Shown here: positions 1 to 38,666 of the stretch, one piece after another | Numbering within the stretch: the first letter of the stretch is position 1 | How the letters are laid out: each line of letters opens with the position of its first letter | IMG/VR virus record: IMGVR_UViG_3300009158_000031 | Location: 186,001-250,000 of that record | Strand: one strand, 5' to 3' | Length of the DNA: 64,000 bases | DNA from: a virus | Translations under genes and position numbers: made by a program | The notes under the pieces: generated by a model | Database searches by the model: none | Seen by the model: the letters and a program-made list of their open reading frames with translations, nothing else | What the model was told of the DNA's origin: nothing

Positions 1-957
1 AAGAAATCCGGTGCTGGTTTTGAAATCGATGTTGAAAAACTATCTAGTCAAGAACAAGATGATTTATTAAAATATTTACACTCACAAGATTATTTAGAAG
101 AATCTGTTAATGAAGCTTGGAGTAATATAGACACCGACAAAGCTGCCGATCTAATCAATAAAGAAATTGGAGTTAATCCTGGTTATTTCTTTATTGGCGA
201 TGAAGATTTATGCATCAAATTTGATAAATTATGGACTGAAAAGAAATACAAAGTAGCTCTTAATATGTTATTTTTTATTGAAAATCTAAAAGATCTTAAA
301 GACTTCATAAAACAAAACCAAAACGAATCGGTTAATGAAGCAGTATCACCAGAAGTACATCGTATGGTTAATAAATTTGTAACCGGTATGGCTGATAAAT
401 ATGATTATTCTTTACAAGATGCAGTTTATGCAATACTAGACGTTTTAAAAAGTCAAAAATATAAAGGATTAAAAGAATCTGTTAATGAAGGTGAAACTTT
501 AATATTTGATGAGATCGGAGAAAACCTAACCAAACTTCAGGATCAAATAGATGCAATGCTTAAATGGGAAATCACCGATCAAAAATGGATCGTTGCACTT
601 AAAACAATTCAATCTGCCTGTTCTAAATTGGAAGATACTGTCGCTAAAGCTGATCAGAAATTAGGTGCTATTGAATATAATGAATCCATTAGTGAAGGTC
701 TTTTAAAATTAGATGAAGGTGCTGTTAAACAATTTGAGATCGATTATAAAGACATGGAAAGTAGTATCAAACGAGGTATTGGTTGGATTGATCCTGAATA
801 TGTGGCTGAAACTTGGGAGAATTCTTCAGATACTATTGATTATGAAATAGTTAGAAATGAAATTCTTACTCGTCTAATTAAAGCCGATCTTCTTTATACA
901 TCACTAGATGGAGAAACTAAAGGTAAAAGAATTACCAACATAAGTCAAATTAAATAA
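1..957 (+). CDS. Internal/cargo-type protein with repeated ESVNEA-like motifs (5' partial)
   Basis: The reading frame is open from base 1, so the true start lies upstream of the window; the first in-frame ATG at 265 is internal. At least 318 residues are visible. A short motif recurs: EESVNEAW, NESVNEAV, KESVNEGE and NESISEGL. Each copy sits between helical, charged segments and resembles the end of the N-terminal signal (F-L-N-E-S/A) of the neighbouring cargo proteins. The family is not recognised. The stop codon overlaps the next start (TAATG). I infer a structural or core protein cut at several sites by a prohead-type protease; this is not proven. Confidence 0.7.
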   Translation, partial: KKSGAGFEIDVEKLSSQEQDDLLKYLHSQDYLEESVNEAWSNIDTDKAADLINKEIGVNPGYFFIGDEDLCIKFDKLWTEKKYKVALNMLFFIENLKDLKDFIKQNQNESVNEAVSPEVHRMVNKFVTGMADKYDYSLQDAVYAILDVLKSQKYKGLKESVNEGETLIFDEIGENLTKLQDQIDAMLKWEITDQKWIVALKTIQSACSKLEDTVAKADQKLGAIEYNESISEGLLKLDEGAVKQFEIDYKDMESSIKRGIGWIDPEYVAETWENSSDTIDYEIVRNEILTRLIKADLLYTSLDGETKGKRITNISQIK

Positions 958-1859
958 TGCTAAAATTTAATCAATTTGTTAACCTGATTCTTAATGAAGG
1001 AGGTAATGCGATTGAGGATGCTCGTCCTATTTTGCAATCTGAAATAGATGCAACGTATGCATATGTTATTAAAAACATATATCCTCTTATTGGTCTTGCC
1101 GAAGATTTTGCTAAACCAATAGGATCTTTTAAGAAAAAAGCACCTGATCAAACATCTGGTGATATCGATATTGCCGTTCTTGCTGATAGAATTGCCGGAG
1201 AAAATGGAATTGATTTATCTCAGGTTCTTGAATTCATCGCATCTAAATTGAGTGATTATTCTCCGGTCGTTAGTAAAGGGTTTCAACAAGTTTCTATAGG
1301 TGTTCCAATTGAAGGTGATAAGAAAAAAGGTATTGCACAAATTGATTTGATGCTAACAGATAATCTGAATTTTTCCTCCTTCATGTATCATTCACCAGAC
1401 TTTACTCAAGCAGAATCCAAATATAAAGGACTTTACCGTAATATTCTACTAATGAATATCATTAGCAATTCGAAACGAGAAACTACCAAGCTAACCGACA
1501 AAGGTGAAATTGAAGAATATCGTTCATATGTACTTCGTCTAAATCAAGGTGTTGTTGCGGTAACCAAATCGTTTATAGGTAAGAAAGGGTTAGTTAAGAA
1601 TCCTACATTACTCAACGATCAAGATAAATTTATGTCTAATACTCCAGAAGTTATTGCGGAATTGGCATTCGGTCCGGATGTTCCCATTTCAGAAATAATG
1701 ACTTTTGAAGATACTTGGAGACATACAATGGATTCTAAATTTATTCACCAAGATAAATTAGATGCAATTCTAAAAGATTTCAGAACTAGATTACTTGCTG
1801 CTAAAGTTCCTTTCCCTATTGAATGTGTAGAACAATACCCAAATATATTTACATCATGA
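957..1859 (+). CDS. Putative nucleotidyltransferase with N-terminal capsid-targeting-like signal
   Basis: This 300-residue protein starts M-L-K-F-N-Q-F with LNE at residues 12-14, the shared cargo signal. After it comes a polymerase-beta-type nucleotidyltransferase signature: G56-S57 and then D69-I-D71 (GDIDIAV), with a further acidic strand (IAQIDLMLTD) near 130. This fits the GS...DxD...D active site. The family transfers nucleotides to proteins, RNA or small molecules; the substrate here cannot be read. It overlaps its neighbours by one base on the left and TGATG on the right, so they are co-transcribed. I infer a packaged, injected enzyme. Confidence 0.65.
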   Translation: MLKFNQFVNLILNEGGNAIEDARPILQSEIDATYAYVIKNIYPLIGLAEDFAKPIGSFKKKAPDQTSGDIDIAVLADRIAGENGIDLSQVLEFIASKLSDYSPVVSKGFQQVSIGVPIEGDKKKGIAQIDLMLTDNLNFSSFMYHSPDFTQAESKYKGLYRNILLMNIISNSKRETTKLTDKGEIEEYRSYVLRLNQGVVAVTKSFIGKKGLVKNPTLLNDQDKFMSNTPEVIAELAFGPDVPISEIMTFEDTWRHTMDSKFIHQDKLDAILKDFRTRLLAAKVPFPIECVEQYPNIFTS

Positions 1860-3382
1860 TGTTAAAATACAATCAATTCGTTCAATGGTTAAATGAATCA
1901 GCTATGGCTCCAGTTGAATGGAATGAGAAGCCTAAATATCGAGTACAATTTCTTAGTTTCTTAGAAGATAAAAATAAAGAACTTATAATTGATGGTAAAT
2001 ACAAATCCTCATATCCATTTCTAACTTTCAAAGTTTCTGATATTTCTAATTTAGAAGATATACAATCGTTTATAAAAAGTGATAAAGCGGTTTCATCTAA
2101 AGAACCTTTAATGGATGTTGATGCAGTTAAAATACCATTAACACATTTGCTAAAAACTGGATTATTTACTAATCAATCAAAGACTTCAACTGATACCGAT
2201 ACTAAAGAAGGTATGGTTGTTTATTTCTACTACAATCAAGACGCAGACATTCTTTCTATAAAAAATTCAGAAGCAGTTGCATTAGTAGATAACATTCCGA
2301 ATGGAGATTTACATCCAAAAGCTATGGATAAAATTAGATTATGGTTATCTGATTTTGATAGAGAAAATGAAGAACAAATCGCTCAATGGAAATCTACCGG
2401 TAATGTAATGGCTGAATTTTTATCGAATGGATATCATTTAGACCGAAATGATATACTTATAAAAGTTAGAGATAGGGCAAGAATACTTTCTGGTTTAGCA
2501 CCGGATAATTGGTGTCCTGGAGACGTTTACTTAGTAGATCCTTCTGCTAAATCTACCATACTTGATTATGTAAATAATGCAAAAACCATAGGAGAATTAA
2601 ATTTATTATTCAATGATTCATTCACACCAAGAGAAACCTCAGCTGAACCTATGGGATCTCTTGTAGCGGTTTCTCTTAAACAACAAGTAGCTAGATTAGG
2701 TAGAGCAAAAGAATTCCTAAAAACAATATCCACAAAAGATTCAGTATATAACCTTACAAAAGAAGAATTGGTTAAATGTAAAACTGATGAATCTTGGGCA
2801 AAAGCAGAAATTTCTAATTATCAACAACTCTTAGGAACTATCGCTTCTAAATCAGAGATAACCGTTCATTATAACCCTGGAAGTGTAGATCGTATTAAAC
2901 CGGCTTTATTACCTAGTAAATTGGCTGCCATAAAATTAACTTATCATCTACTTACTTTACCAAAAGAATCACCGGAAGATCTTGATGATAATCTTCTAAG
3001 TGTTCTTCAATTTGGACTTAAGCAAGCCGACAAATCAACAAATCCTCCATATTTCAAAATCACCGGAAGTATAAAAGGTGAAGGTAGTTTAGAGTTCTTT
3101 CATGGAGGAGATACTTTAAAGTTATTAATTGGAGGAATTGGTAACAAAGAAGCCAAGCTAGTTATTTTAGATTTACCTAGTAGATTAGATATTGTTCTGT
3201 TTTATTACGTTTCAATTGGCGATACTGCATATGAAATTCGTTTAAGGTCGGCAACTACCAATAGTAAACAAGCCGGATTAGAATTTGAAAGAAAAGATAT
3301 TATCGGAAATCTTGTAGAAGATCCTCAAGGAACAACATCTAAAATAGATAAATTATTCCATCAAAGATCCTCGATGAAATAA
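1859..3382 (+). CDS. Unknown protein with capsid-targeting-like N-terminus
   Basis: This 507-residue protein has no family I recognise. The start at 1859 is preferred over ATGs at 1823 and 1856 because it begins M-L-K-Y-N-Q-F-V-Q-W-L-N-E, matching the shared signal and the preceding gene, and it gives a TGATG overlap. The body is mixed alpha/beta and soluble, with no membrane segment; a PGDVYLVDP stretch lies near residue 220. A GATAAATA late-type octamer follows the stop. I infer packaged cargo by its N-terminus and neighbours. Confidence 0.65.
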   Translation: MLKYNQFVQWLNESAMAPVEWNEKPKYRVQFLSFLEDKNKELIIDGKYKSSYPFLTFKVSDISNLEDIQSFIKSDKAVSSKEPLMDVDAVKIPLTHLLKTGLFTNQSKTSTDTDTKEGMVVYFYYNQDADILSIKNSEAVALVDNIPNGDLHPKAMDKIRLWLSDFDRENEEQIAQWKSTGNVMAEFLSNGYHLDRNDILIKVRDRARILSGLAPDNWCPGDVYLVDPSAKSTILDYVNNAKTIGELNLLFNDSFTPRETSAEPMGSLVAVSLKQQVARLGRAKEFLKTISTKDSVYNLTKEELVKCKTDESWAKAEISNYQQLLGTIASKSEITVHYNPGSVDRIKPALLPSKLAAIKLTYHLLTLPKESPEDLDDNLLSVLQFGLKQADKSTNPPYFKITGSIKGEGSLEFFHGGDTLKLLIGGIGNKEAKLVILDLPSRLDIVLFYYVSIGDTAYEIRLRSATTNSKQAGLEFERKDIIGNLVEDPQGTTSKIDKLFHQRSSMK

Positions 3383-3390
3383 GATAAATA
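3383..3390 (+). promoter_or_regulatory. Late-promoter-like octamer GATAAATA
   Basis: GATAAATA ends 22 bases before the ATG at 3413. It differs from the T4 late -10 octamer TATAAATA at one position. The same octamer lies 15-23 bases before the endolysin, the flavodoxin-like gene and the giant surface protein. No -35 element is visible, as in T4 late promoters. Assignment is by analogy. Confidence 0.4.
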
Positions 3391-3412
3391 ACATAACAAA
3401 AACAAACAAAAC

Positions 3413-4000
3413 ATGTATACTAGAGAACAGATAGAAGGAGCCGTAAAGGCTAAAGGATACGTTTGGTTTGAAGGGGAAAAAGATTACGATGTTAATATCG
3501 TGGGAGTTAGAAATTCAGCCACTGGCCAAAAAGTTACTAATGTATTTGATGATACATTAACACTATCCTATAAGATTGCCGGTCAATGGAAATTCCATAC
3601 CTGGATATGTACAACTGACCCTGGTAAAAAGGGTGTTATGGAATATCATAATGCTGCTGGTGTTGCAAGATTAGTCGAAGGACAATATCGTGGATCTCAT
3701 ACTATCAGATTACATCAAGGAAAATATGAAGCTTTAGGGCAAGCTAAAAACGTAAAAGTTTATAGAGATGCTAACCGAGATTTAACTTATAACGAAGATA
3801 AAATTCAAGAAGGAGTTTTTGGAATTAATATTCATAAAGCCGGTGCCGATTCAACATACGTCGAGAATTGGTCAGAAGGTTGCCAAGTATTTAAAAAATC
3901 AGCAGACTTTGAAGAATTTATGACTATAATCAGAAAATCAAGAGATATTCATGGTAATTCTTTTACCTATACTCTAATTGAATCTACTGATATCGCCTAA
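3413..4000 (+). CDS. L,D-transpeptidase-like (YkuD-fold) peptidase, putative lysin
   Basis: This 195-residue protein carries the hallmark of YkuD-type catalytic domains in its C-terminal half: NIHKAG near residue 142, then WSEGCQVF with the candidate nucleophile Cys157. The H...S-x-G-C order matches L,D-transpeptidases, which act on peptidoglycan cross-links. No signal peptide or cargo signal is present. It follows a late-type octamer by 22 bases and sits between signal-bearing cargo genes. It may be a virion-associated or late cell-wall enzyme, alongside the GH19 endolysin (20934) and the transglycosylase (50193). The exact reaction is inferred. Confidence 0.6.
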   Translation: MYTREQIEGAVKAKGYVWFEGEKDYDVNIVGVRNSATGQKVTNVFDDTLTLSYKIAGQWKFHTWICTTDPGKKGVMEYHNAAGVARLVEGQYRGSHTIRLHQGKYEALGQAKNVKVYRDANRDLTYNEDKIQEGVFGINIHKAGADSTYVENWSEGCQVFKKSADFEEFMTIIRKSRDIHGNSFTYTLIESTDIA

Positions 4001-4014
4001 CAAATATATACATT

Positions 4015-4449
4015 ATGATACTAAACTACCAAGAATATCTTGCTTTAGAAGAAGCCGCTAAGTACTCAATCGATAAAAATCATTCTCTAATTGCCGTTCA
4101 TGGTCTTTCATTGAGAGATCAAATACACGTTTGGCATTGGCAAACCGAGGTTGGCGATCAACATAAAGCCTTAGGAGAATTTTACGAAAACTTATTAGAA
4201 ACTCTCGATCAATTAGTAGAAGCTATAATGGGAAAATACGGAAGAATTTCTGTTAAGACGGTTGGATCTCCTAAACCTCTTGTTGATCTACAAGATCTAA
4301 AAAACATTGACGCTTTTGTTGATGAATACATAAAACTTTTTGACAATTTCAGAAACACAACTTTCAAAAATGATACAGAAATTCAGAATATCATAGATGA
4401 AATCGTTGCAGAAGCTCTTAAATTGAAATATCTCCTAACAATGTCTTAA
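4015..4449 (+). CDS. Ferritin/Dps-like helical protein (DUF5856-like) with cargo-type N-terminus
   Basis: This 144-residue all-helical protein contains a segment near 28-65 (LRDQIHVWHWQT, then HKALGEFYENL) that resembles the first helices of Dps/ferritin-like proteins and the phage DUF5856 group. The N-terminus M-I-L-N-Y-Q-E-Y-L-A-L-E-E-A is a variant of the shared signal and contains LEE, which fits L-x-E. Dps-like proteins bind iron or DNA; whether metal ligands are complete cannot be judged. A packaged DNA- or iron-binding role is inferred. Confidence 0.55.
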   Translation: MILNYQEYLALEEAAKYSIDKNHSLIAVHGLSLRDQIHVWHWQTEVGDQHKALGEFYENLLETLDQLVEAIMGKYGRISVKTVGSPKPLVDLQDLKNIDAFVDEYIKLFDNFRNTTFKNDTEIQNIIDEIVAEALKLKYLLTMS

Positions 4450-4466
4450 AAATACTTAATTACAAA

Positions 4467-4850
4467 ATGTTTGTACCAAATCACATTCACGTCCTTATTA
4501 AAGGTTATGTCAAAAATCCACCTCGAACAGAGGAACATCTAAATGATTGGTTTCGACGATTGGTCGAACGTGTAAGAATGGTAGTAGTTGCTGGTCCAAC
4601 TTCTGTATATGTTAATGAACCCGGAAATGAAGGTTTAACTGGAACCGTTACATTAGCAACCTCACATGCATCTATTCATGTATGGGATAACATTGAACCT
4701 GCAATGTTCCAATTCGATCTATATTCATGTTCAGAATTTACTCCACAGGAAGTTATCGAACACTTAGAAGAATTCGATCTAGTTTCATGCGAATATATGT
4801 TCATCGATCGTAATACTGAAATGAAAGTCGTAGAAACTGGAAATGTTTAA
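4467..4850 (+). CDS. S-adenosylmethionine decarboxylase-like protein
   Basis: This 127-residue protein matches the bacterial SpeD size and core. Near residue 66 it has TSHASIHVW, comparable with the ESHxSIHxW motif of AdoMet decarboxylase, where the Ser before His becomes the pyruvoyl cofactor after self-cleavage. The next strand, QFDLYSCS, fits the DxFTCG part of the fold. The usual Glu before Ser is Thr here, which could alter autoprocessing. The enzyme would feed polyamine (spermidine) synthesis, which large phages use for DNA charge neutralisation. It overlaps the next gene by 8 bases. Confidence 0.5.
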   Translation: MFVPNHIHVLIKGYVKNPPRTEEHLNDWFRRLVERVRMVVVAGPTSVYVNEPGNEGLTGTVTLATSHASIHVWDNIEPAMFQFDLYSCSEFTPQEVIEHLEEFDLVSCEYMFIDRNTEMKVVETGNV

Positions 4851-5187
4851 AGCTCTAAAAAATAAATTACACATCATATCATGGGTGTTAACTGATATTG
4901 TCTGGTACTCAGGCAATTCTGATTTAACTCTGATTATGATTATACCTACGTTACTCTTAACCGGATATGCTCTAATAGCACAAAAGGATAAAAGAGAAGA
5001 AAACTTTGTACTTGCCTCATGGGTTCTTGCGAATACTATTTGGTTGTTACATGAAATACGAGATTGGTCTATTCTTCCAGTTTTTCTTTTCATGACGATT
5101 GGAGTCGTATTCTCTTTTCTCACTATGAGATCTTGTTTACATATCCAATGCAAAAAACCAACACCTATAAAAAATGGCAAAGTCTAG
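4843..5187 (+). CDS. Multi-spanning membrane protein, unknown
   Basis: This 114-residue protein has about four hydrophobic segments (near residues 10-25, 28-45, 55-70 and 78-95) and a basic tail. It has no recognised domain. It overlaps both neighbours (8 and 14 bases), so it is part of the 4467-5850 operon. Confidence 0.6.
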   Translation: MFKALKNKLHIISWVLTDIVWYSGNSDLTLIMIIPTLLLTGYALIAQKDKREENFVLASWVLANTIWLLHEIRDWSILPVFLFMTIGVVFSFLTMRSCLHIQCKKPTPIKNGKV

Positions 5188-5317
5188 TACCAGCGAGGTT
5201 AGAAATTTCCACGCTAAAACTAAAAAGAAAAATCCTGGAGTACATTCGAAGACAAAATCTTCAAGAGCAAAAACTTCTAAGAATTACAGAAAAGCTTATG
5301 TAGGACAGGGGAAATAA
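5174..5317 (+). CDS. Small basic conserved protein (HSKTKSSRAKTSKNYRKAY type)
   Basis: This 47-residue, Lys/Arg/Ser-rich protein is read from ATG 5174 to TAA 5315-5317, overlapping the membrane protein by 14 bases. Its pattern (FHAKTKKKNPGVHSK..., then KNYRKAYVGQGK) resembles a small basic protein that I recall from flavobacterial genomes and phages. The charge suggests nucleic-acid binding; function is unknown. Confidence 0.65.
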   Translation: MAKSSTSEVRNFHAKTKKKNPGVHSKTKSSRAKTSKNYRKAYVGQGK

Positions 5318-5322
5318 TCCCT

Positions 5323-5850
5323 ATGGCAAAACGTAGAATTCAAAACCGAACCATAATGTTTTTTGGTCAGGTTACAGAAAACAATGTATCTAAAGTCATC
5401 GATCAAATTGATGCCATTTTAGAAGAAGATCCGAATGACAATGGTCCCATCAAAATCATTCTGTCTAGTGAAGGTGGAGATGTGTATGATGGATTTGGCC
5501 TTATAGGTTATATGGAATCTATACCAATAAAATTCCATATTCATTGTGTAGGTAAAATCATGTCAATGGCATTACCAATCGCTCTATCAGGAGATTTAGT
5601 TACTGCATCTCCTTATTGTACTTTCATGTATCATGAAATATCCCATTCCGTACCATATCACGAGAAGATACAATATCACAAACAAGAATTAAAAGAATGT
5701 GACCGTCTACAGAAGATGTACGATGAGTATATAGTTAATCACACCAAGTTCGATAAAGTGTTCCTAGATGATATTAAGGATAAACGAGCAGAGTTCTATT
5801 TTTCACCGAAAGAAGCCATTAAATATGGTGTCATATCTAAAATAGTTTAG
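5323..5850 (+). CDS. ClpP-like serine protease
   Basis: This 175-residue protein has the ClpP/crotonase fold. A glycine-rich oxyanion strand (SSEGGDVYDG) is followed by candidate nucleophile Ser81 in the MSMALP context (ClpP usually ASMA) and His104 in FMYHEIS (ClpP usually MIHQP). A conserved Asp should lie in the C-terminal helix. The length is slightly short for ClpP but close to phage ClpP-like proteins. Phage homologues serve either as prohead proteases or as degradative subunits. A prohead role would fit the L-x-E cargo signals nearby, but T4-type prohead proteases belong to another family, so this is only one option. Confidence 0.75.
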   Translation: MAKRRIQNRTIMFFGQVTENNVSKVIDQIDAILEEDPNDNGPIKIILSSEGGDVYDGFGLIGYMESIPIKFHIHCVGKIMSMALPIALSGDLVTASPYCTFMYHEISHSVPYHEKIQYHKQELKECDRLQKMYDEYIVNHTKFDKVFLDDIKDKRAEFYFSPKEAIKYGVISKIV

Positions 5851-5875
5851 ATAGATATTAAAATCAAATTATCAA

Positions 5876-6157
5876 ATGGAAAACAAATCAAATACCGTCT
5901 TTGGAAAACTTAAATGGTTCTTTACCGAACTTATGAAAATGTACAGCAGTGAAAAATCATATTTCTCTAAGAAGAGAGTTGAATCTGGAATTGCTTTTGT
6001 CATATCTCAATGGGGTATGATTTGGTTCTTAATAAAGAAAATCGATGTACTAACTGCATCCGATATGTTAATTTGGGCAGGTATTGAATTTGCCGTTGCT
6101 GGATATATGATTAATCAAATCCAAAAAGAGAAGAAGACCGAAGATACTTCTAATTAA
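5876..6157 (+). CDS. Small two-span membrane protein, holin-like candidate
   Basis: This 93-residue protein has an amphipathic N-terminal half and two hydrophobic helices (about residues 39-55 and 62-80), ending in a lysine-rich tail. The size and topology would suit a holin or membrane anchor. No lysis gene is adjacent, so the role is unknown. Confidence 0.55.
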   Translation: MENKSNTVFGKLKWFFTELMKMYSSEKSYFSKKRVESGIAFVISQWGMIWFLIKKIDVLTASDMLIWAGIEFAVAGYMINQIQKEKKTEDTSN

Positions 6158-6162
6158 ATTTT

Positions 6163-6173
6163 ACATATAATTA
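6163..6173 (+). promoter_or_regulatory. CATATAAT-type upstream motif
   Basis: ACATATAATTA lies 23 bases before the NUDIX gene start. The same (A/T/G)CATATAA(T/A) core recurs before many operon starts in this window, for example at 7614, 9010, 14264, 46318, 54232 and 59776. It may be a middle-promoter -10 element; this is inference from recurrence. Confidence 0.35.
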
Positions 6174-6195
6174 CTATATTCTAAATAGTAATAAT

Positions 6196-6606
6196 ATGCA
6201 AACATCAGCCGGAATACTTTTCATATTAGACAACAAAGCGCTATTAGCACATTCAACTAATTCAAGATGGTGGAATTCATGGATGCCACCTAAAGGTCAT
6301 GTTGAAGACGGGGAGTCTTTACCACAAACAGCAGCCAGGGAAACCGAAGAAGAAATTGGTTGGCGAATAGATCCTAAATATCTTAAAGAAAGTTTTCTAG
6401 TAGAATATCAAAAATCTAATATGGTTTGGAAACAAATACACATATTTCCGATTTATCTAGATTCCATTAATGACGATAGATTAAAAATTGTAGGAGATCT
6501 TCAAAAAGAAGAAGTTGATGCTATTGAATGGATGGATCATGATATGATTATTAAAAGATCTAATCGAGGTTATGTTACACATATATTAAACGCAATAAAA
6601 AAATAA
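6196..6606 (+). CDS. NUDIX hydrolase
   Basis: This 136-residue protein contains a complete NUDIX box around residues 35-57: GHVEDGE, seven residues, then RETEEEIG, matching G-x5-E-x7-R-E-U-x-E-E-x-G-U. The family hydrolyses nucleoside diphosphates linked to other groups (oxidised NTPs, nucleotide sugars, RNA caps, NADH). The segment NSRWWNSWMPPKG before the box is typical of diadenosine-polyphosphate/MutT-like members. A CATATAAT-type motif precedes it. Confidence 0.85.
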   Translation: MQTSAGILFILDNKALLAHSTNSRWWNSWMPPKGHVEDGESLPQTAARETEEEIGWRIDPKYLKESFLVEYQKSNMVWKQIHIFPIYLDSINDDRLKIVGDLQKEEVDAIEWMDHDMIIKRSNRGYVTHILNAIKK

Positions 6607-6611
6607 AAATT

Positions 6612-7586: not shown

Positions 7587-7613
7587 AATAGATATTCTTC
7601 ATTAATGCGTAGT

Positions 7614-7625
7614 TCATATAATTTA
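7614..7625 (+). promoter_or_regulatory. CATATAAT-type upstream motif
   Basis: TCATATAATTTA lies 17 bases before the metallophosphatase start at 7643, in a 56-base gap. It belongs to the recurrent (A/T/G)CATATAA(T/A) set. Confidence 0.35.
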
Positions 7626-7642
7626 AAATACACATTAATCAA

Positions 7643-29955: not shown

Positions 29956-29969
29956 GAGTAAGGAACTGC

Positions 29970-30360: not shown

Positions 30361-30361
30361 T

Positions 30362-30420
30362 CAAAAAAAGGTCACAAAAAGCCAAAAAGGATCACTTTTA
30401 GCCAAAAAGGATCAAAAAGG
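30362..30420 (+). repeat. Phased A-tracts with repeated GCCAAAAAGGATCA
   Basis: A/T tracts start near 30363, 30376, 30384, 30394 (T run), 30404 and 30414, mostly 8-12 bases apart. GCCAAAAAGGATCA occurs twice, 20 bases apart. A-tracts in helical phase bend DNA, so this is a predicted bend between the CTAG-rich segment and the GC-richer tract. Confidence 0.55.
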
Positions 30421-30976: not shown

Positions 30977-31303
30977 ATGGAAATGAAAACTGTAATGTAC
31001 TGTTCAACTATTGAAGATGCACGAGAGTGTATTGAAGATGATACGACGATATTTCCGCTTCTCGAAAGAGCTCTGATTACCATGTGGAAGACAACCTCTC
31101 ACTCTGAGGAAGTTCTAGAAATCCGTTGTATGGATGTAGGTGCTTCTATGTGGGTAACTCTCCGTCGAAGTGAGTGTGATGAAGTATGGGAGAAGATCAT
31201 CACTTGGAGAAGTGGAAGAGAAGAGTGGGAAGAACTGACGGTACTTAAAGATATTCGAGATGAGTGGTTCAACTCTAAGAAGGTTGTGGAGCCAGTCCAT
31301 TGA
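30977..31303 (+). CDS. Small acidic protein, unknown
   Basis: This 108-residue protein is Glu/Trp-rich (EEWEELTVL, WKTTSHSEEV). The start at 30977 follows a TCATATAA motif; ATG 30983 is an alternative. No family is recognised. Confidence 0.55.
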   Translation: MEMKTVMYCSTIEDARECIEDDTTIFPLLERALITMWKTTSHSEEVLEIRCMDVGASMWVTLRRSECDEVWEKIITWRSGREEWEELTVLKDIRDEWFNSKKVVEPVH

Positions 31304-31329
31304 AAAAAAAAAGCCCTCCAGCGTTCAAA

Positions 31330-31411
31330 CTCTGAGTTTCAGGAATAAATAGAAATATAAACGAACAAAAAAGCGCGCAGCGGCTTCCACCTCTGAGTAC
31401 CAAGAATAAAT
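31330..31411 (+). repeat. Short direct repeat CTCTGAGT-N6-AATAAAT
   Basis: Two copies, 31330-31350 and 31391-31411, 61 bases apart, each ending in AATAAAT. The second copy runs into the ATG at 31410. They may be duplicated late-promoter-like leaders in front of the cargo cluster. Confidence 0.4.
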
Positions 31412-31787
31412 GAAATCAATACCTACATATCACGAATTCCTTAATGAGACCGTCTCATTTAATACCGATACTACTGGTCGTGAAGATTGGGATGATGATC
31501 TAAAGAAACATTCTAGAGATTTTACTCAATCTATAGTAATAATGAGTCCGATGGATTTCTTGAAGAGAGTTCAATATCACCGATTTGAGATTAATAAATC
31601 TAAAGTGGCTAATTATGTTAAAGAATTTCGTGGTAATGTCAAAGGAATTCCAGCACCAACCATGTGGTTCTCTGATAAGTTTCAATACGATAAAGGACTT
31701 GCTCCTGCTTTTCATGATGGATCTCATCGCATGCTAGCTCTACAAGAAGTAGGGATACGAGAAGTTCCGGTTAAAATTATATACTAA
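31410..31787 (+). CDS. ParB-like domain protein with cargo signal
   Basis: This 125-residue protein starts M-K-S-I-P-T-Y-H-E-F-L-N-E, the shared signal, with LNE at 11-13. The C-terminal half contains FHDGSHRMLALQEVG followed by EVPVKIIY, which matches the G-x-H-R core and closing strand of ParB/sulfiredoxin-like domains. These can be nucleases, CTPases or kinases. It leads the large cargo cluster. Confidence 0.55.
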   Translation: MKSIPTYHEFLNETVSFNTDTTGREDWDDDLKKHSRDFTQSIVIMSPMDFLKRVQYHRFEINKSKVANYVKEFRGNVKGIPAPTMWFSDKFQYDKGLAPAFHDGSHRMLALQEVGIREVPVKIIY

Positions 31788-31788
31788 G

Positions 31789-32409
31789 ATGAAAAACATT
31801 CAAACATACGAAAGCTTCTTAAATGAACTTCGACATTCAAAAGAGTTTTTAATAGACCTATTTTCTAAAATGGATATTTTAGATAATGATGTATACAAAA
31901 ACATTTTAATCCATTACATTGAACAACCACAAAATTTAGAAAAACAAGAGTTCATTGATTTAGTTTCATGGTTGATCCAGAATAAAAACAAGTACAGTGA
32001 AGTACTAAAGCCTAAAAATGGATATGCATACAGAGGAACTTCAATAACTCCTGATATGTTTCATAAATTAAAAAATGGATTATCAAAAAAAGAAGGTGGT
32101 ATAAGCATATTTAACTTTCCTTATACCAGCGAATCAGAAGCACAAAGTTGGACATATGATTATAAAGTAGCAATGAGGTTTGCGGATAAAGGTCTTTTAA
32201 ATAACCCTAGATTAGAAAAAGGAGCTAGACCAGCTATTTTAAGAGCTAAGATAGATGATACATTTGTAGGTAATCCTAAGTTGACTGGTCCCATAGCTGA
32301 CCGATTAAGTCTGAAGTCCGAAAAGGAAATATTTCATTTAGGGAATTCTATAAAAGATGCTGAATGGATGATATTCTCAGCCGATATAGAATTAGGAAAA
32401 TTTAATTAG
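31789..32409 (+). CDS. ADP-ribosyltransferase with cargo signal (Alt-like)
   Basis: This 206-residue protein starts M-K-N-I-Q-T-Y-E-S-F-L-N-E. The rest fits an R-S-E class ADP-ribosyltransferase: R82 in YAYRGTS, S120-W-T in the second strand with the helix VAMRFA, and the E178-K-E180 (E-x-E) motif that transfers ADP-ribose to arginine. T4 Alt, an injected ADP-ribosyltransferase that modifies host RNA polymerase, is the closest functional parallel. It starts 1 base after the ParB-like gene. A packaged effector is inferred. Confidence 0.7.
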   Translation: MKNIQTYESFLNELRHSKEFLIDLFSKMDILDNDVYKNILIHYIEQPQNLEKQEFIDLVSWLIQNKNKYSEVLKPKNGYAYRGTSITPDMFHKLKNGLSKKEGGISIFNFPYTSESEAQSWTYDYKVAMRFADKGLLNNPRLEKGARPAILRAKIDDTFVGNPKLTGPIADRLSLKSEKEIFHLGNSIKDAEWMIFSADIELGKFN

Positions 32410-32419
32410 TATAAAGACT

Positions 32420-32818
32420 ATGAAATCAATATCGACATATGATGAATTCTTAAATGAGTCTATTCGTGCAGAAGAGGCTTATCGAGATACAGGAGCTATT
32501 CAAACCGTCATTGATGGAAAGAGAGATATGGGATTCATTACCATCAAATCATCGGTTGATGTGAGCGAAAAAGAATTCTGGACATTGGTGAAGATACACG
32601 ATCTGAGTACCATTCACCTATCTGGAAATGAATATGATGCCTATATCTATTATCATAAAGGAGCCGAGCGAGGTGCCAGAGAGCTAGCGAAGATTGCTAA
32701 CAAATACGGTGGATATCTATCACATGAAGCGACTGAACGAGAATCTCGTCGAATAGGCGAACTTCTAGGTTACGATCGACGAGACATAGATGATTATATA
32801 AAGAAAAACTACAAATAA
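32420..32818 (+). CDS. Unknown protein with cargo signal
   Basis: This 132-residue protein starts M-K-S-I-S-T-Y-D-E-F-L-N-E. The remainder is charged and alpha/beta, with a basic, Arg-rich C-terminal helix (ATERESRRIGELLGYDRRD). No family is recognised. The stop overlaps the next start (TAATG). Confidence 0.6.
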   Translation: MKSISTYDEFLNESIRAEEAYRDTGAIQTVIDGKRDMGFITIKSSVDVSEKEFWTLVKIHDLSTIHLSGNEYDAYIYYHKGAERGARELAKIANKYGGYLSHEATERESRRIGELLGYDRRDIDDYIKKNYK

Positions 32819-32973
32819 TGGATAATGGAAAACGTAATCAATTAAAACCTGTGAGAATCGCTGATGTTAATAAGTTGGTGGCTAATGATCCGAGGATTCT
32901 TATTAAAGTTAATCATAAAGGTGGAAGTGGAGTTTCTCTTATGAACACTAATAAAATTAAAGACCGAAAATAA
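32818..32973 (+). CDS. Small basic protein
   Basis: This 51-residue protein runs from ATG 32818 (overlapping the previous stop) to TAA 32971-32973. It is Lys/Asn-rich, contains VNHKGGSGVSL, and has no cargo signal. Function unknown. Confidence 0.6.
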   Translation: MDNGKRNQLKPVRIADVNKLVANDPRILIKVNHKGGSGVSLMNTNKIKDRK

Positions 32974-32975
32974 GA

Positions 32976-33680
32976 ATGAGAAAGATAGCCTTATATGAGC
33001 AATGGATAAATGAAATTGGTGATTCATCAGCCAAGCCATTCAAATGGAGTAGTCCTGTTATCGCTGTTAATATGAAGAGATGGATAGATGATTGTATCGA
33101 AGGAGCTGCAGACAAGAAGATGAGTGGAACTCAAGAAGATATTTACTATAAAACTAAAACATTTAGATATGAATTCCGATCGGATGTGACTAATACAAAT
33201 TATCATGTACACATCGGTGGATTTGTTGGTAGAAATATCTGGATTGCCTTTCAAGGAGAAAAACCTAAAGATTGGGTTGGATATCATATAATTGCCGGAT
33301 TAGGATTTGGTGTTGAAGGAGATTTCGATAAAACTACTAATCTTAATGAACAATTCCGAGTAATGGCAACCGTTACCGAATGTGCCATTGATTTTCTACA
33401 ACGATTCTTGGATGATGGACGAATCAAGATTGATAAATTTCACATGAAACCTAAGGCCGATCACGAAGAACAAAAAGGAATAGATTCTCGTCGAGCTAAA
33501 CTATATGCCCCTTATATTAAAGCCGCATTCCGCAAACTCAAAACGAAGAAGGATTATTACATAGATCAAGAGGCAGATGGATTCGTTCTTCATTTCGGAA
33601 AGGTCATAATGAACTCTCCTTATTCCACTTCAGTATTAGCATCAACCTTTGAAAATGAAGAATCCAATGAAATCAATTAA
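32976..33680 (+). CDS. Unknown protein with cargo signal
   Basis: This 234-residue protein starts M-R-K-I-A-L-Y-E-Q-W-I-N-E. The body has beta strands and a C-terminal DSRRAKLYAPYIKAAFRKL helix. No catalytic motif is recognised. It overlaps the nucleotidyltransferase gene by 14 bases. Confidence 0.6.
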   Translation: MRKIALYEQWINEIGDSSAKPFKWSSPVIAVNMKRWIDDCIEGAADKKMSGTQEDIYYKTKTFRYEFRSDVTNTNYHVHIGGFVGRNIWIAFQGEKPKDWVGYHIIAGLGFGVEGDFDKTTNLNEQFRVMATVTECAIDFLQRFLDDGRIKIDKFHMKPKADHEEQKGIDSRRAKLYAPYIKAAFRKLKTKKDYYIDQEADGFVLHFGKVIMNSPYSTSVLASTFENEESNEIN

Positions 33681-34737
33681 GCTATATGAAGCCTTCTTAA
33701 CAGAAGGAGGCTGGGCAACAACCAAAACACAAGGAACCGTTCTGACTCCAGCTGTTATCGCTGAGGTTGTGAAGGTTATGGATCTGATCAATACGGGATT
33801 CAATGGACATTTGAGAGAGCTTGAACTTCCCACTCTAGATATTCTAAAACCTATTGGCAGTGGAACTTGGTGGAGTGAAGATGTGACCGAACAACCAGAC
33901 AAAACTTATGGAGATGTCGATTACATGGTTGCCTATCCCACTTTGAAGCTCACTGCTGGTCGTGATAGAGAAGATGAGATTGCTACGGTGAAGCTATACA
34001 ATACCGAGCTGCTCATGTGGTTAGAGGAAGAAGGTATCACCGATGTAGATATTGATGAGACGAAGAAAATATCTTCGGATGTTTCTCTTAAGTTAATTGC
34101 GATCGTTCCCTTTAATGGAACTGATGCATATGTTCAGGTTGATATGGTTGTTACTCACAAAGAGTATAGTGATTGGGCAGTATTCCGTATGACTCCTATT
34201 CGTAACGTTAAAGGTTTTGTGCTAGGAAATCTCTACTCTTCATTTGGTGAAGTTCTAGATTTGTCTATTCAGGCAAGAGGAGTAAGAGCTAAATTTGAAG
34301 GTCAGGTTATGAAGCCTTATTCTAAACGAGCTAATGTTGAGGATCGCATCATCTCACAAAATGCTGAATCATTCATGACCGATATCGCTCGTTTCTTTTG
34401 GGAACAGAGCGGAACAGATATTCCATTCACCGCTACTCCTATCGAATCTTGGAAGGGAATGGATCGCAACTCTCCTCGATTCGAAGATCTAGCCGAAGGA
34501 ATTCGTCTGGTTGCCGAGACACTAGGTCAGCTAGACGAATTTGGAACTACTATTAAATACAAATCAGCTGCTGATCTACTAAATGCAGTGATTGCTCAAT
34601 ATACGAAGAAGATGATGGAAGCTTATAATTCTGCTAAATTTGATAAGGCAGAAACTCCAGCAGCAAAAGCCATTATCACTAAAGTTAGAGCAACCATTGA
34701 CGAATATATCAGTCTGGCTAAATCACTACTTACATAA
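33667..34737 (+). CDS. Putative nucleotidyltransferase with cargo signal
   Basis: This 356-residue protein is started at 33667 (not 33649 or 33655) so that it begins M-K-S-I-K-L-Y-E-A-F-L-T-E, matching the shared signal. It has G64-S-G-T followed by D83-V-D85 (YGDVDYMVAY) and a later strand YVQVDMVV with the third Asp, the polymerase-beta-type nucleotidyltransferase triad. It is the second such enzyme with this signal (first at 957). Target unknown; AMPylation-like or tRNA modification are possible. Confidence 0.65.
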   Translation: MKSIKLYEAFLTEGGWATTKTQGTVLTPAVIAEVVKVMDLINTGFNGHLRELELPTLDILKPIGSGTWWSEDVTEQPDKTYGDVDYMVAYPTLKLTAGRDREDEIATVKLYNTELLMWLEEEGITDVDIDETKKISSDVSLKLIAIVPFNGTDAYVQVDMVVTHKEYSDWAVFRMTPIRNVKGFVLGNLYSSFGEVLDLSIQARGVRAKFEGQVMKPYSKRANVEDRIISQNAESFMTDIARFFWEQSGTDIPFTATPIESWKGMDRNSPRFEDLAEGIRLVAETLGQLDEFGTTIKYKSAADLLNAVIAQYTKKMMEAYNSAKFDKAETPAAKAIITKVRATIDEYISLAKSLLT

Positions 34738-34744
34738 AAGTAAT

Positions 34745-35119
34745 ATGTTATACTATTCACCAAAAATTGCAGTCGGAGAATCGACTGTAGCAGGCAGAGG
34801 TGTATTTGCCATAGCCGATATAGAGGCTGGAGAGGTACTTGAAGAGTGCCACTTCTTTTTACTAACTAATGGTAATCATTCAGCTATGGATGATACTTTA
34901 AAAGAGATGGTATTCGCATGGCCGGCATATAATGATGTTCATCAATTTGCTGTTGTACTAGGCAGTGGAACTGTTTATAATCATTCATATGAAAACAATG
35001 CAACCTGGGATACTGATGAAGCTAAATGCTGTTTCAGATTTTCTTCTACTCGAGACATAAAGGCCGGTGAAGAGATATTCACAAATTATAACCGAAGCGG
35101 AGGAAATCACTTTGATTGA
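34745..35119 (+). CDS. SET-domain methyltransferase
   Basis: This 124-residue protein is a compact SET domain. GRGVFAIADIEAGEVLEE (N-terminal motif), TVYNHSYENNATW (the N-H-S SAM/pseudoknot motif) and STRDIKAGEEIFTNY (C-terminal Tyr motif) are all present in order. SET proteins methylate protein lysines with SAM. The start is 34745, since the frame from 34640 lies inside the previous gene. It has no cargo signal, but it lies in the cargo cluster. Confidence 0.8.
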   Translation: MLYYSPKIAVGESTVAGRGVFAIADIEAGEVLEECHFFLLTNGNHSAMDDTLKEMVFAWPAYNDVHQFAVVLGSGTVYNHSYENNATWDTDEAKCCFRFSSTRDIKAGEEIFTNYNRSGGNHFD

Positions 35120-35125
35120 TAAATA
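35118..35125 (+). promoter_or_regulatory. Late-promoter-like octamer GATAAATA
   Basis: GATAAATA overlaps the SET gene stop and ends 20 bases before ATG 35146, the same spacing as other late-type octamers here. Confidence 0.45.
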
Positions 35126-35145
35126 TAAAAACACACAAAAGCTAA

Positions 35146-36063
35146 ATGGCTAATTCAACATACACAGATCTTCAAGTTCTTATTCAACGAATAAGAGGTA
35201 AGCGAGTTCTTCTTCTTACAACATCTAATAGATGGAGTGGTGATGAAGGAGGAAAACCTAAATCTACTCAATTGGCTGAGTTAATAGCCAGATCTTTATA
35301 CGACGATTCAACGGATTCTACTCTTTGTAAAGTAATAGATATTCCATCTCTCAATATTCACAACTGTGAAGGTAATGTATCTTCCGGAAGTGGTAATGGT
35401 TGTGGAGTTAAGGCTGCTGCCCTAAAGGATACCACTAAAAATCCTACTGGTAATCTTCGTTGTTGGGCTTCTATTAATAATGCCGATGATGAGTTATGGA
35501 AAGTTAGTAATGCTATATTCGAATCAGATGTAGTCCTCTTCTTTGCTTCTACAAGATGGGGTCAGGCAAATGCATTCTATCAAAAACTTATCGAACGTCT
35601 AACTTGGTTAGAGAATCGTCACACTACTCTTGGTGAATCTAATCTACTAGGAAATATTGAAGCTGGTGGATTCTTCATTGGACACAATTGGAATGTAGAA
35701 GATGTAATGAATACTCAAAGAACGGTACTTCAGTATTTCGGATTTCAAGTTCCACCTCAACTTTTTCTTCACTGGCAATGGACTAATAGTGATACTAACG
35801 AAACTCAGAAAGGATATGAAGCTGATGCTAAAGACTTCAAAGAGGTTTGGAAAGTTGGAACATATCCTTTAGAGGAAAGTTTTAATCGTTGGTTGAATGA
35901 AGCTGGTTATGATGCTGGTTCTAGAAAACCTACTCCGGAAGAGGTTGAAATGTGCAAATCTCCAGAAGGATTTAATCAGATAAACCACTGCAAAGCTTTA
36001 GGACTTACTCCTCGTGAAGATGGAACCAAAGCCAAATCTAAAAAATATGGTGGTGACGCATAA
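35146..36063 (+). CDS. Flavodoxin-like NAD(P)H-dependent FMN reductase-like protein
   Basis: This 305-residue protein has a flavodoxin-like fold: VLLLTTSNRWSG at the N-terminus (phosphate loop), VVLFFASTRWGQANAFYQKLIERL near 125 (the typical NPxYxxxxPxxxKxxxD-like region of FMN reductases, here altered) and a later GGFFIGHNWN strand. The C-terminal 80 residues are charged. It has no cargo signal. It could be a redox enzyme acting late; substrate unknown. Confidence 0.55.
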   Translation: MANSTYTDLQVLIQRIRGKRVLLLTTSNRWSGDEGGKPKSTQLAELIARSLYDDSTDSTLCKVIDIPSLNIHNCEGNVSSGSGNGCGVKAAALKDTTKNPTGNLRCWASINNADDELWKVSNAIFESDVVLFFASTRWGQANAFYQKLIERLTWLENRHTTLGESNLLGNIEAGGFFIGHNWNVEDVMNTQRTVLQYFGFQVPPQLFLHWQWTNSDTNETQKGYEADAKDFKEVWKVGTYPLEESFNRWLNEAGYDAGSRKPTPEEVEMCKSPEGFNQINHCKALGLTPREDGTKAKSKKYGGDA

Positions 36064-36845
36064 TGAAACCGATAAAACTTTTTGAAGATTTTATTAATGA
36101 ATTCGATACAGGTAAAGTATTACTAGGTGATCCTTCTTTATTGGGTAGACCTAATAAATGGGAAGATCTCGGAATAGAGTTTGAACCTAATACTGCTGAC
36201 AAAACTCAATTAATACAATTGATAAAAGATTGGATTTTTAAAGTAAAGGCAGATCCAAAGATGGGACATATCCTTAAAGAATTGCTGCCCTTAAAAAAGA
36301 AGTTTCCGAAAATATTAGAACCATCTGAAGGTAGATCCGTCTATGAAGGTACTTCTCTTTATAGAGGAACTATAATACCATTTAAAGAAGTGTTATCACT
36401 AAAGGGTAAATGGAAACGTAACGACGCGGTTGATATTTTTGGTGGTAGCCTAAATCTCAGTACATCATATAATTGGGAAAGTATTAATAGAAAGGGATTC
36501 ACTTCGTTTACACCATCTATCGAAATAGCGGCCACTTTTGCAGGAAGCCTTAGTTCAGAAAATTATAACGAAATTGTAGCATCTAAAACGGTTGTTAAAA
36601 GATTATTAGATGGATCCATTGATGGTATGATTCCGATGATTATTAAAATTAAAGACACACATCCCTTAGCAATTATGAATCCGGTGTTTACTCAATCAAT
36701 TCACGAATTCATGAATGAATTTGAGGTATTTGTTGTTGGAAATAAAATCCGGGTTGATGAAGTTATAATTCCAGGATGGCATTACTACGAAAGAGATGCT
36801 AAAGAATTAGGAGTAGATCTTACAAAATATTTTAACATACAATGA
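36063..36845 (+). CDS. ADP-ribosyltransferase with cargo signal (Alt-like)
   Basis: This 260-residue protein starts M-K-P-I-K-L-F-E-D-F-I-N-E. It has R101 in SLYRGTI, S148 in GFTSFTP followed by helix IEIAATFA, and E219-F-E221 (E-x-E), the R-S-E triad of arginine-directed ADP-ribosyltransferases. It is longer than the one at 31789 and has a 90-residue helical spacer after the signal. Like T4 Alt it is expected to be delivered with the DNA. It overlaps both neighbours by 1-4 bases. Confidence 0.75.
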   Translation: MKPIKLFEDFINEFDTGKVLLGDPSLLGRPNKWEDLGIEFEPNTADKTQLIQLIKDWIFKVKADPKMGHILKELLPLKKKFPKILEPSEGRSVYEGTSLYRGTIIPFKEVLSLKGKWKRNDAVDIFGGSLNLSTSYNWESINRKGFTSFTPSIEIAATFAGSLSSENYNEIVASKTVVKRLLDGSIDGMIPMIIKIKDTHPLAIMNPVFTQSIHEFMNEFEVFVVGNKIRVDEVIIPGWHYYERDAKELGVDLTKYFNIQ

Positions 36846-37450
36846 AACATATCCAAGGTTTTAATACATTCCTTAATGAAGGCGAAGGTTTATTTGCTGA
36901 TGCCGGTAAAGGATCTACTAAAGGAATTGGATATGGAACGCCAGAAAAAGCTAAAGAGACTATTAAGATCGCTGACAAAATGAAGGCAGACGATCCAGGA
37001 AAAGCCGTTCAAATCGTTAATGCCATGCTCAATCGAGCTAAATACTCAAATGGTCAGAATGATGGCATGAGAGCAGCAATTCCCATCTTTCAAAAATGGT
37101 TAAAGGCCAATCAAGCATCTGAATCATTTTTAGGAGTTGATGAATTCATTCTAGAAAAACTTTGGCAAAAGGAAGTAGAATCTTCTCACCTTAACGAAAT
37201 TGAATATGACTCATCAACTGAAGAACTAACTATTACTTTTAACAATGGAGACCGCTACAGATATTATGAAGTTCCTAAATCCATCTTCCGAGAATTTGCC
37301 AATGAGAAAACTATTCTAGGAAAGATTGGTGGAGGAATTGTCAAAGGAGCCAAGAAGCTATTTGGTAAGGATATTGACGAAGGTACATATGGTAAAAAAT
37401 TCTGGTCACTCATTCGTCGAGGTGGCTATCAATACGAAAAACTCTCATGA
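36842..37450 (+). CDS. KTSC-domain protein with cargo signal
   Basis: This 202-residue protein starts M-K-H-I-Q-G-F-N-T-F-L-N-E. A helical middle (30-100) is followed by a C-terminal KTSC-like domain: SSHLNEIEYD, ITFNNGDRYRYYEVP, then GKKFWSLIRRGGY. It pairs a packaging-type N-terminus with a module also encoded alone at 15911. The function of KTSC is not settled. Confidence 0.6.
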   Translation: MKHIQGFNTFLNEGEGLFADAGKGSTKGIGYGTPEKAKETIKIADKMKADDPGKAVQIVNAMLNRAKYSNGQNDGMRAAIPIFQKWLKANQASESFLGVDEFILEKLWQKEVESSHLNEIEYDSSTEELTITFNNGDRYRYYEVPKSIFREFANEKTILGKIGGGIVKGAKKLFGKDIDEGTYGKKFWSLIRRGGYQYEKLS

Positions 37451-38112
37451 AAGAAATAAAATTATATGAGCAATGGCTCAATGAAATCGATGGTCCTGCA
37501 GATGGATCTCTATTCGGTACATCCGGAGTAGATTTTGGATTCATCGGTCTGCAAGATCCAGGAGACACACCAAATTCGTTTGAACCTAATATGGTTGAAT
37601 CCTTTATTATTGATCTTCTTCAAAGACACAATAATACCGTTCCTTCTCCTGGCACACTTACCGTCGAGTATCTTGAAGATATCGAAAAGGTACAAACCGG
37701 AATGAGTGATAAAGATCGATCATTTGTTCAGGCAGTTAATAATAATCCTATGGCTTTTCATGTTGAAGATGCCAAGAAAGCTGGTATTGATCTAGATGGT
37801 AAATGGTTAACTGAATGTTGGGATTATGCTACCAGTGTAGCAGGTACTGCAAAAGATATTTGGAAAGTAAAACGTCCATTTGAATTAAGCTCAAAAGTCA
37901 AGGGGTTGGTTCCTACTAAATCCTTCTCATTTCCTTCAACTAATGCGGCCGGATCTTTTTATGTAGCAAAAAAGGTTGCAGAGAAATATCCTCAATTGAA
38001 AGAATCTCAAATGGAAGTGGCTACTCAAATAGCAAATTCACGAGTTGTTGCCGGTGTGCATCATCCATTAGATATTGCCGTTGGAAAAATGTTAGCCTTA
38101 GGCTTATTATAA
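37447..38112 (+). CDS. PAP2/acid-phosphatase-like protein with cargo signal
   Basis: This 221-residue protein starts M-K-E-I-K-L-Y-E-Q-W-L-N-E. The C-terminal half has the three PAP2 phosphatase motifs: K-D-I-W-K-V-K-R-P (K-x6-R-P), FPSTNAAGSF in place of PSGH, and S-R-V-V-A-G-V-H-H-P-L-D (S-R-x5-H-x3-D). The nucleophile His is kept, but the motif-2 His, the general acid, is Asn, so activity may be altered. Soluble class A acid phosphatases are the nearest group. ATGA overlap with the previous gene. Confidence 0.65.
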   Translation: MKEIKLYEQWLNEIDGPADGSLFGTSGVDFGFIGLQDPGDTPNSFEPNMVESFIIDLLQRHNNTVPSPGTLTVEYLEDIEKVQTGMSDKDRSFVQAVNNNPMAFHVEDAKKAGIDLDGKWLTECWDYATSVAGTAKDIWKVKRPFELSSKVKGLVPTKSFSFPSTNAAGSFYVAKKVAEKYPQLKESQMEVATQIANSRVVAGVHHPLDIAVGKMLALGLL

Positions 38113-38666
38113 TGTTCAAGAAATTTAGACAATTCATTAATGAAGATATTCATATACCTTCCGGTAAATGGATAGACACTGACCTTAAAGGTCAGGATGA
38201 TGATATGATGCAACTCATATGGACAATGTATACTGACACATACTCTAAACAAGGATTAGATTTCTCTGCCGATGATTATGCTGAACTTAAAACTAAATAC
38301 CAAGCAACATTCTTAAAGGATGTTGACCATGATCGTATTCCAGATGCCTTTATTATATACAAGAAAACGAAGTATGGAAATAAGATTGCTCTTCTAGGAA
38401 CTAATGATAAGAAGACTGCAAAACGAGATCTTCTAGAAAAAACTATTTCATTACTTAAAAATCCTGGTTGGTTGTTAGAGGCCTCTCGTAAAATGGAAGA
38501 GATTCTTTCAAATTCAAATGTTCCTTATATTGAAGATCCTGAAATCATTGCTGATATTGTCGGTAAAGACAAGAAACCTGAAATGGTTAAACATGGATAT
38601 TATACAAGACTTCTTTCAAAAACACCAAAGCGTATCTTAAAACGCATGTATGGTAAGGTCAAATAG
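38112..38666 (+). CDS. Unknown protein with cargo signal
   Basis: This 184-residue basic protein starts M-F-K-K-F-R-Q-F-I-N-E, a shorter variant of the shared signal. VDHDRIPDAFIIY near residue 70 and a lysine-rich C-terminus are notable. No family is recognised. It is the last member of the cargo cluster. Confidence 0.6.
   Translation: MFKKFRQFINEDIHIPSGKWIDTDLKGQDDDMMQLIWTMYTDTYSKQGLDFSADDYAELKTKYQATFLKDVDHDRIPDAFIIYKKTKYGNKIALLGTNDKKTAKRDLLEKTISLLKNPGWLLEASRKMEEILSNSNVPYIEDPEIIADIVGKDKKPEMVKHGYYTRLLSKTPKRILKRMYGKVK

Follow-up and report, generated by a model that had tools for sequence, protein, structure and literature searches.

A shared N-terminal tag points to a greatly expanded T4-type capsid-targeting system in a giant phage

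In bacteriophage T4, the internal proteins (IPs) IPI-III carry the capsid-targeting sequence (CTS), MKTYQEFIAE, in which mutation has assigned residues 4 and 7 to targeting and residues 8 and 10 to processing, and the prohead protease gp21 cleaves after L/I-x-E (PMC9026906). Reviews of T4 have already proposed that T4-like phages use such sequences to load a variety of proteins (PMC9026906; PMC3012670). Here we analysed a 64,000-base stretch of viral DNA (the window), positions 186001-250000 of the 254,393-base virus record IMGVR_UViG_3300009158_000031, which has roughly 370 called genes. A first-pass annotation of the window had described twelve proteins that share a short N-terminal tag and had proposed that they are targeted to the head, trimmed by a protease and injected. 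Our comparison makes it highly probable that this giant contractile-tailed phage has a greatly expanded T4-type system of tag-driven head targeting plus cleavage. The principle itself was known before; the novelty lies in the scale, in tags that are divergent and lineage-specific, and in the polyprotein cargo. Bare gene numbers below are window starts, "record" numbers are positions in the whole record, L-numbers are loci compared, and an arrow (↓) marks a predicted cut.

The shared tag and its match to the T4 sequence

The twelve open reading frames lie where the first-pass annotation had placed them, with ATG starts and the N-termini it described. Searching the remaining genome for tagged starts added about 30 further genes, so that the earlier count of twelve was too low, and 42 tagged genes are now listed in the record, including irregular ones (record 76094, 96708, 97629 and 182865; window 957 and 4015). 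A tandem array at record 133186-137355 comprises ten of the tagged genes. The tag has the consensus M-K-x-I-x-T-[F/Y]-x-x-F-[L/I/V]-N-E and spans roughly 11-14 residues. Past it the bodies are generally unrelated, as had been claimed, apart from two body pairs in the genome (record 97629/97953 and 222842/69416); paralogy was ruled out as the source of the shared starts, save for these pairs.

The tag was also recovered by a motif-free comparison of the first 15 residues after Met in all genes, with column-permuted shuffles as the null. In this de novo test 36 genes had at least three N-terminus partners, against 0 in 20 shuffles, and a few of these 36 (e.g. record 200607, 164722 and 8123) appear to be other start types. 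The same test recovers T4 IPIII, which served as a positive control. Chance N-terminal likeness was ruled out by the column-permuted null, a reversed-pattern control and a bacterial genome scan.

The 34 core tags were chosen by a pattern requiring residue classes at -6, -3 and 0, and the counts there are partly by construction: aligned on the Glu, the tags hold F/Y at -6, F/W/Y at -3, L/I/V at -2 and E at 0, each in 34/34. Free of that construction are Asn at -1 (29/34), Ile at -9 (24/34) and the drop in information, from 4.3 bits at the E to 1.3 at +1 and to baseline beyond; the unbiased test is the de novo comparison. Ser, Gly or Ala directly follows the first (L/I/V/M)xE in 28/39 tags (20% expected, p = 3e-12). 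Spacing variants still hold an (L/I/V/M)xE (MLKFNQFVNLILNE, MKNLMSFDEFVVNE, MKAIPKFNEFKTVGMNE), with record 96708 as the sole exception. A gp21-type (L/I)-x-E motif, with Val accepted too, thus lies directly at the tag end. The tag reads as two elements, a putative hydrophobic helix pattern and a predicted protease site, and in the AlphaFold model of 957 it falls outside the confident fold.

When the T4 CTS is aligned on its E, residues 4, 7, 8 and 10 fall on columns -6, -3, -2 and 0, which are the most conserved in the tag besides the Asn at -1. The start MKTYQEFIAE, earlier attributed to T4 internal proteins and Alt alike, was found for IPII and IPIII, whereas the protein taken as Alt (683 aa) starts (M)MELITELFDE.

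Outside the tandem cluster at 133-137 kb, selection works at the peptide level. Identical tag residues there share a codon in 61.2% of cases versus 58.4% expected from codon usage, DNA identity is 0.61 within the tag and 0.30 over the next ten codons, and the upstream DNA of tagged genes is unrelated (mean identity 0.34). The codon and upstream data rule out copying of 5' DNA modules outside the cluster; within it, codon sharing is 0.736 versus 0.536 expected. A locus search with record 135671, from within the cluster, returned near-identical copies only.

The prohead protease and the distribution of the tag

The full genome holds a prohead protease, whose absence the first-pass annotation had named as grounds for refuting its proposal. 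A Peptidase S77 match (PF03420) at record 101739 scores 50.7 bits against a curated cut-off of 27 and belongs to phrog_207, head maturation protease; the protein has 633 aa, and the gene order is portal, protease, major capsid protein (MCP). Its catalytic H71 and S126 align with H85 and S140 of T4 gp21, and its D148 with D168. The C-terminal part holds about 18 (L/I/V/M)xE sites, throughout residues 163-607, and its LNE[SGAN]-type sites number 5 versus 0.53 expected (p = 2e-4), the genome's highest by simple count. To judge from these sites, the protease appears to have a scaffold fused to its C-terminal side. An internal Met at record 103146 in the same gene opens a CTS-like start, MHFFNFLAESKRNE; in T4 gene 21, an internal start yields a short form (PMC9026906). 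The MCP has candidate sites at residue 6 (LINE↓S) and at residue 43 (HELYE↓N), the latter aligning near the T4 gp23 cut (FLTE↓A). Amid tagged genes, record 94045-95451 encodes a 468-aa protein with several (L/I/V)xE↓(S/G/A/N) sites and no clear tag, which is a candidate core or second scaffold protein.

The element [AG]ATATATA, at about -27, precedes the protease gene, the gene after the MCP gene and the tail sheath gene (record 128909, phrog_34521). It lies upstream of 10/40 tagged versus 11/280 untagged genes (p = 4e-5), with 35 copies on the + strand and 3 on the - strand, and may reasonably be taken as a shared late promoter. The T4-like late promoter TATAAATA showed no enrichment.

A strict tag pattern was back-translated, with the reversed peptide pattern as its control. 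In IMG/VR the pattern matched at least 116 stretches and the control 0; 257 Gb of bacterial and archaeal genomes yielded one matching stretch. That sole prokaryote match, CANCYS010000003.1 (L476), is a 187-kb contig of a Clostridia metagenome-assembled genome and could be a binned phage contig. A looser pattern had at least one match in each of 25 large tagged contigs, and its backwards control had none. Among contigs of at least 130 kb, S77 was present in 14/14 tagged contigs, near-duplicates included, versus 4/9 controls (Fisher p = 0.004). The controls were picked by a tRNA-arm pattern under the same size limit, in place of an earlier random 16-base control scan that had given no contig above 74 kb; the four S77-positive controls had no tag matches. 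Since S77 phages without the expanded tag exist, S77 is not sufficient for it, although it may be necessary. By the de novo test, the 462-kb phage LR756500 has about 36 tagged genes, and phage PAU has about 20 with a different tag. The same test found no such N-terminal cluster in phiKZ, crAss001, MaF61, PTm1, MA9V-1, KVP40, RM378, HTVC008M or S-RIM50, and the sampled parts of Lak-B1 and LR756504 gave unrelated groups only.

Modular cargo and the tagged genes of the window

Homologs of the 957 body at 18 loci in IMG/VR place the predicted cut at a domain boundary, with (L/I/V)xE↓(S/G)GN opening the shared domain in 18/18. In 12/18 this site closes the N-terminal tag. An additional module of about 80-160 residues separates the tag from the 957-type body in the remaining 6/18 (L462, L466-L469 and L472); the tag remains the polypeptide start, and a new site forms the join (FEQFVSE↓S, ESFISE↓S, ESFVVE↓S or VEFVNE↓G). 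Homologs in other phages retain tags through 50% body divergence. The Lak-B1 homolog of 957 starts without a tag, the Dps-like family (DUF5856) of 4015 has 80 homologs of which the closest four are tagged and 76 are untagged, and record 182865 and its LR756500 ortholog carry a tag on each. By these homolog patterns, the tag is an add-on that tracks the phage lineage, not the body.

The gene at the left edge of the window carries several such sites. One open frame, to which the ATG at window 265 is internal, runs from record 185434 through window 957 and encodes a 507-aa polyprotein-like product with modules of 50-79 residues between (L/I/V)xE linkers (DESVNE↓G, EESIEE↓S, EESVNE↓A, NESVNE↓A, KESVNE↓G, NESISE↓G and KLDE↓G). 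L463 has the last module, GAVKQFE..., as a protein of its own behind a tag (MKHLHTFESYVNE↓GAVKQFE...), and the join there falls exactly at the predicted cut; in L462 the module is preceded by a tag, another module and ESVNE↓, and in L459 by KLDE↓. Because this module follows the tag in L463 and linkers elsewhere, tag and linker predict one and the same mature product; among the comparative evidence, this speaks most strongly for the Glu as a real cut site. As the tag end and the linkers share the cleavage motif, modules could be exchanged freely between the two settings. We consider it reasonably likely that injected effectors are made as tagged polyproteins, with one tag importing a string of small proteins that the protease separates in the capsid, and that modules move between stand-alone tagged genes and polyproteins. 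The features of the window are as follows.

1..957, + strand: polyprotein-like tagged cargo, C-terminal two thirds of 507 aa; start outside the window at record 185434, tag MKPIKNYNEFINE↓A
112..114, + strand: predicted cleavage Glu codon, EESVNE↓AWSN, residue 227
337-339, + strand: predicted cleavage Glu codon, NESVNE↓AVSP, residue 302
487-489, + strand: predicted cleavage Glu codon, KESVNE↓GETL, residue 352
694-696, + strand: predicted cleavage Glu codon, NESISE↓GLLK, residue 421
715-717, + strand: predicted cleavage Glu codon, LKLDE↓GAVK, residue 428
718..954, + strand: last module, GAVKQFE..., by comparison with L463 and L462
957..1859, + strand: tagged cargo, nucleotidyltransferase-like; tag 957-998, MLKFNQFVNLILNE↓G
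1859..3382, + strand: tagged cargo, body without Pfam match; tag 1859-1897, MLKYNQFVQWLNE↓S
4015..4449, + strand: tagged cargo, DUF5856 / Dps-like; tag 4015-4053, MILNYQEYLALEE↓A
31410..31787, + strand: tagged cargo, body without assigned family; tag 31410-31448, MKSIPTYHEFLNE↓T
31789..32409, + strand: tagged cargo, ADP-ribosyltransferase-like motifs by eye only; tag 31789-31827, MKNIQTYESFLNE↓L
32420..32818, + strand: tagged cargo, sub-threshold NleE resemblance; tag 32420-32458, MKSISTYDEFLNE↓S
32976..33680, + strand: tagged cargo, body without assigned family; tag 32976-33014, MRKIALYEQWINE↓I
33667..34737, + strand: tagged cargo, nucleotidyltransferase-like by eye only; tag 33667-33705, MKSIKLYEAFLTE↓G
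36063..36845, + strand: tagged cargo, ADP-ribosyltransferase-like motifs by eye (YRG, GFTSFTPS, EFEVFV); tag 36063-36101, MKPIKLFEDFINE↓F
36842..37450, + strand: tagged cargo, KTSC domain; tag 36842-36880, MKHIQGFNTFLNE↓G; body paralog at record 69416
37447..38112, + strand: tagged cargo, PAP2-superfamily phosphatase; tag 37447-37485, MKEIKLYEQWLNE↓I
38112..38666, + strand: tagged cargo, body without assigned family; tag 38112-38144, MFKKFRQFINE↓D

The polyprotein-like gene is thus a thirteenth tagged gene, spanning the left edge of the window with its start 567 bases upstream of that edge. Among the 12 tags that lie wholly in the window, spacing is slightly irregular in two, 957 and 4015; the irregularity of 4015 is accounted for by its relatives, which read NYDEFLNE↓AAKY and NYEDFLNE↓AAKY. 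Inside the tagged cluster lies an untagged SET-domain protein at 34745-35119; 35146-36063 gave no match and, with the SET gene, shows that some cluster genes are untagged.

The body identities first proposed were borne out in part. The PAP2 assignment of 37447 stood by profile, with NCBIfam contributing PAP2-type matches only, as did the Dps-like assignment of 4015 through DUF5856, of which T4 rI.-1 is a relative. One nucleotidyltransferase, 957, is retained at the level of fold: its model resembles the pol-beta nucleotidyltransferase fold, at modest TM-scores (about 0.3). Neither the second nucleotidyltransferase, at 33667, nor the ParB-like domain at 31410 was confirmed. The two ADP-ribosyltransferases, 36063 and 31789, show their features by eye only; the AlphaFold model of 36063, built from two sequences, has a pLDDT of 38, and the identity stays at the level of motifs. 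Sequence searches of the PDB with 36063, 33667 and 957 gave nothing useful. The match of 32420 to the NleE cysteine methyltransferase family (22.9 bits, Pfam cut-off 27) is below threshold and not usable as annotation. By profile, 36842 is a KTSC protein and record 12539 is DUF5824. The product of record 109124-110626 is tagged and RimK-like, an ATP-grasp protein of the ribosomal protein S6 modification family, and plausibly a delivered host-takeover enzyme.

Interpretation and comparison with known systems

In the mechanism we propose, the tag would fold into a short amphipathic helix and bind the prohead core as it grows, with the scaffold portion of the fused protease as the most likely partner. 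The tagged proteins would thereby be built into the prohead before the shell closes. The S77 protease would then cut after the Glu of (L/I/V)-x-E, releasing mature proteins within the head. Once DNA is packaged, these proteins would leave with it, probably being ejected into the host, and we regard injection of most cargo as likely. Some cargo would consist of tagged module strings with further (L/I/V)-x-E sites, one tag delivering several proteins. The tag, its sharp limits and T4-matching columns, the S77 protease with its active site, the modularity and the domain joins at predicted cuts are observed in the sequences, and they support the head-targeting and cleavage proposed in the first-pass annotation. 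From them we infer binding, packaging, cleavage and injection.

Several points weigh against this reading. For this uncultivated phage, packaging, cleavage and injection are argued by analogy. The tag is longer than that of T4 by one helical turn (the conserved Ile at -9) and has a strong Asn at P2, which is dispensable in T4. Spacing deviates in six tagged genes, and record 96708 is without a clear (L/I/V)xE. Near-duplicates among the tagged contigs mean that 14/14 overstates independence, and the S77 phages PTm1 and MA9V-1 are without expanded tags, so that the protease does not imply the system.

One alternative keeps targeting to the core and cleavage and has the cargo work inside the head, in scaffolding, DNA condensation or size control, with no injection. 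It draws on T4, where cut core proteins mostly leave the head (PMC9026906), on the many-site polyprotein, which looks no less like a core protein than like a cargo string, and on the fact that injection of the cargo is something we only infer. Yet the bodies are diverse and enzyme-like (RimK ATP-grasp, PAP2, nucleotidyltransferase fold), which is odd for core parts, and T4 IPs and Alt with such propeptides are injected (PMC9026906); we judge a purely head-internal role unlikely. A signal for another site unrelated to the head (inner membrane, replication compartment or host cell pole) seems very improbable. A short amphipathic helix could bind membranes or another partner, but such a signal leaves unexplained the sharp (L/I/V)xE↓(S/G/A) limit, the same sites in the polyprotein and in the protease-scaffold tail, the match to the functional residues of the T4 CTS and the S77 association. 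That the shared start is a functionless relic of a duplicated or recombined 5' module (promoter plus start codons) is largely refuted, and we give it almost no credence: the excess codon sharing of the ten tandem genes at 133-137 kb would suit it, but beyond that cluster the residues are fixed while synonymous codons are near random, upstream identity is low, and homologs in other phages retain tags despite the divergence of their bodies.

If the expanded head-targeting system is real, the 13-residue tag would be a genome-readable index of the proteins that giant phages bring into their hosts, and dozens of unannotated genes per genome would become candidate host-takeover or counter-defence factors. 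The injected content of giant phage virions would be directly testable, the polyprotein variant would be a new cargo-carrying mode for a virus of bacteria, and, with modules moving freely, the whole would amount to an evolvable plug-in delivery across a large group of giant phages. The tag would also lend itself to loading proteins of choice into very large capsids. The IMG/VR matches and the 25 large contigs checked suggest that the system is widespread. A literature search, with most subscription journals outside its reach, found no paper on such tags in related giant phages.

The closest described system is the T4 CTS on IPI-III, cut by gp21 (Mullaney and Black 1996; reviews PMC9026906, PMC3012670). 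Both are short N-terminal helix-like propeptides on unrelated bodies, with Y/F at -6, F at -3, L/I at -2 and E at 0 relative to the cut, (L/I)xE specificity and a homologous S77 protease adjoining the portal and MCP genes. They differ in that T4 has its tags on the IPs and Alt whereas about 42 genes are tagged in this phage, whose tag adds a conserved Ile at -9 and an Asn at P2, whose protease is fused to a scaffold-like tail and whose cargo includes polyproteins with internal cut sites. The ejection proteins of phiKZ and SPN3US (PMC5694885, PMC10052503) likewise belong to giant phages with many internal head proteins, cleaved after Glu by a gp21 relative (gp175 / gp245). Their propeptides, however, are mostly about 80-250 residues long with no single shared short tag; this phage has the 11-14-residue tag in place of propeptides of that length, and neither a Pfam S77 match nor a tag cluster was found in phiKZ. 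Sphingomonas (Sphingobacterium) phage PAU also has a lineage-specific shared start on many genes. About 19-20 of them begin with its own MKTLxxLYEA or MKSLTKLYESKLNEA, ending in LYE/LNE, for which the literature search found no describing paper; the tag sequence is distinct, with a Leu-Tyr-Glu end. PAU is a cultured phage in which virion proteomics is feasible. Its tagged genes cluster around the portal and protease genes (L013, positions 106051-113735 of the PAU record), and two of the tagged proteins carry the GenBank annotation 'internal capsid protein'.

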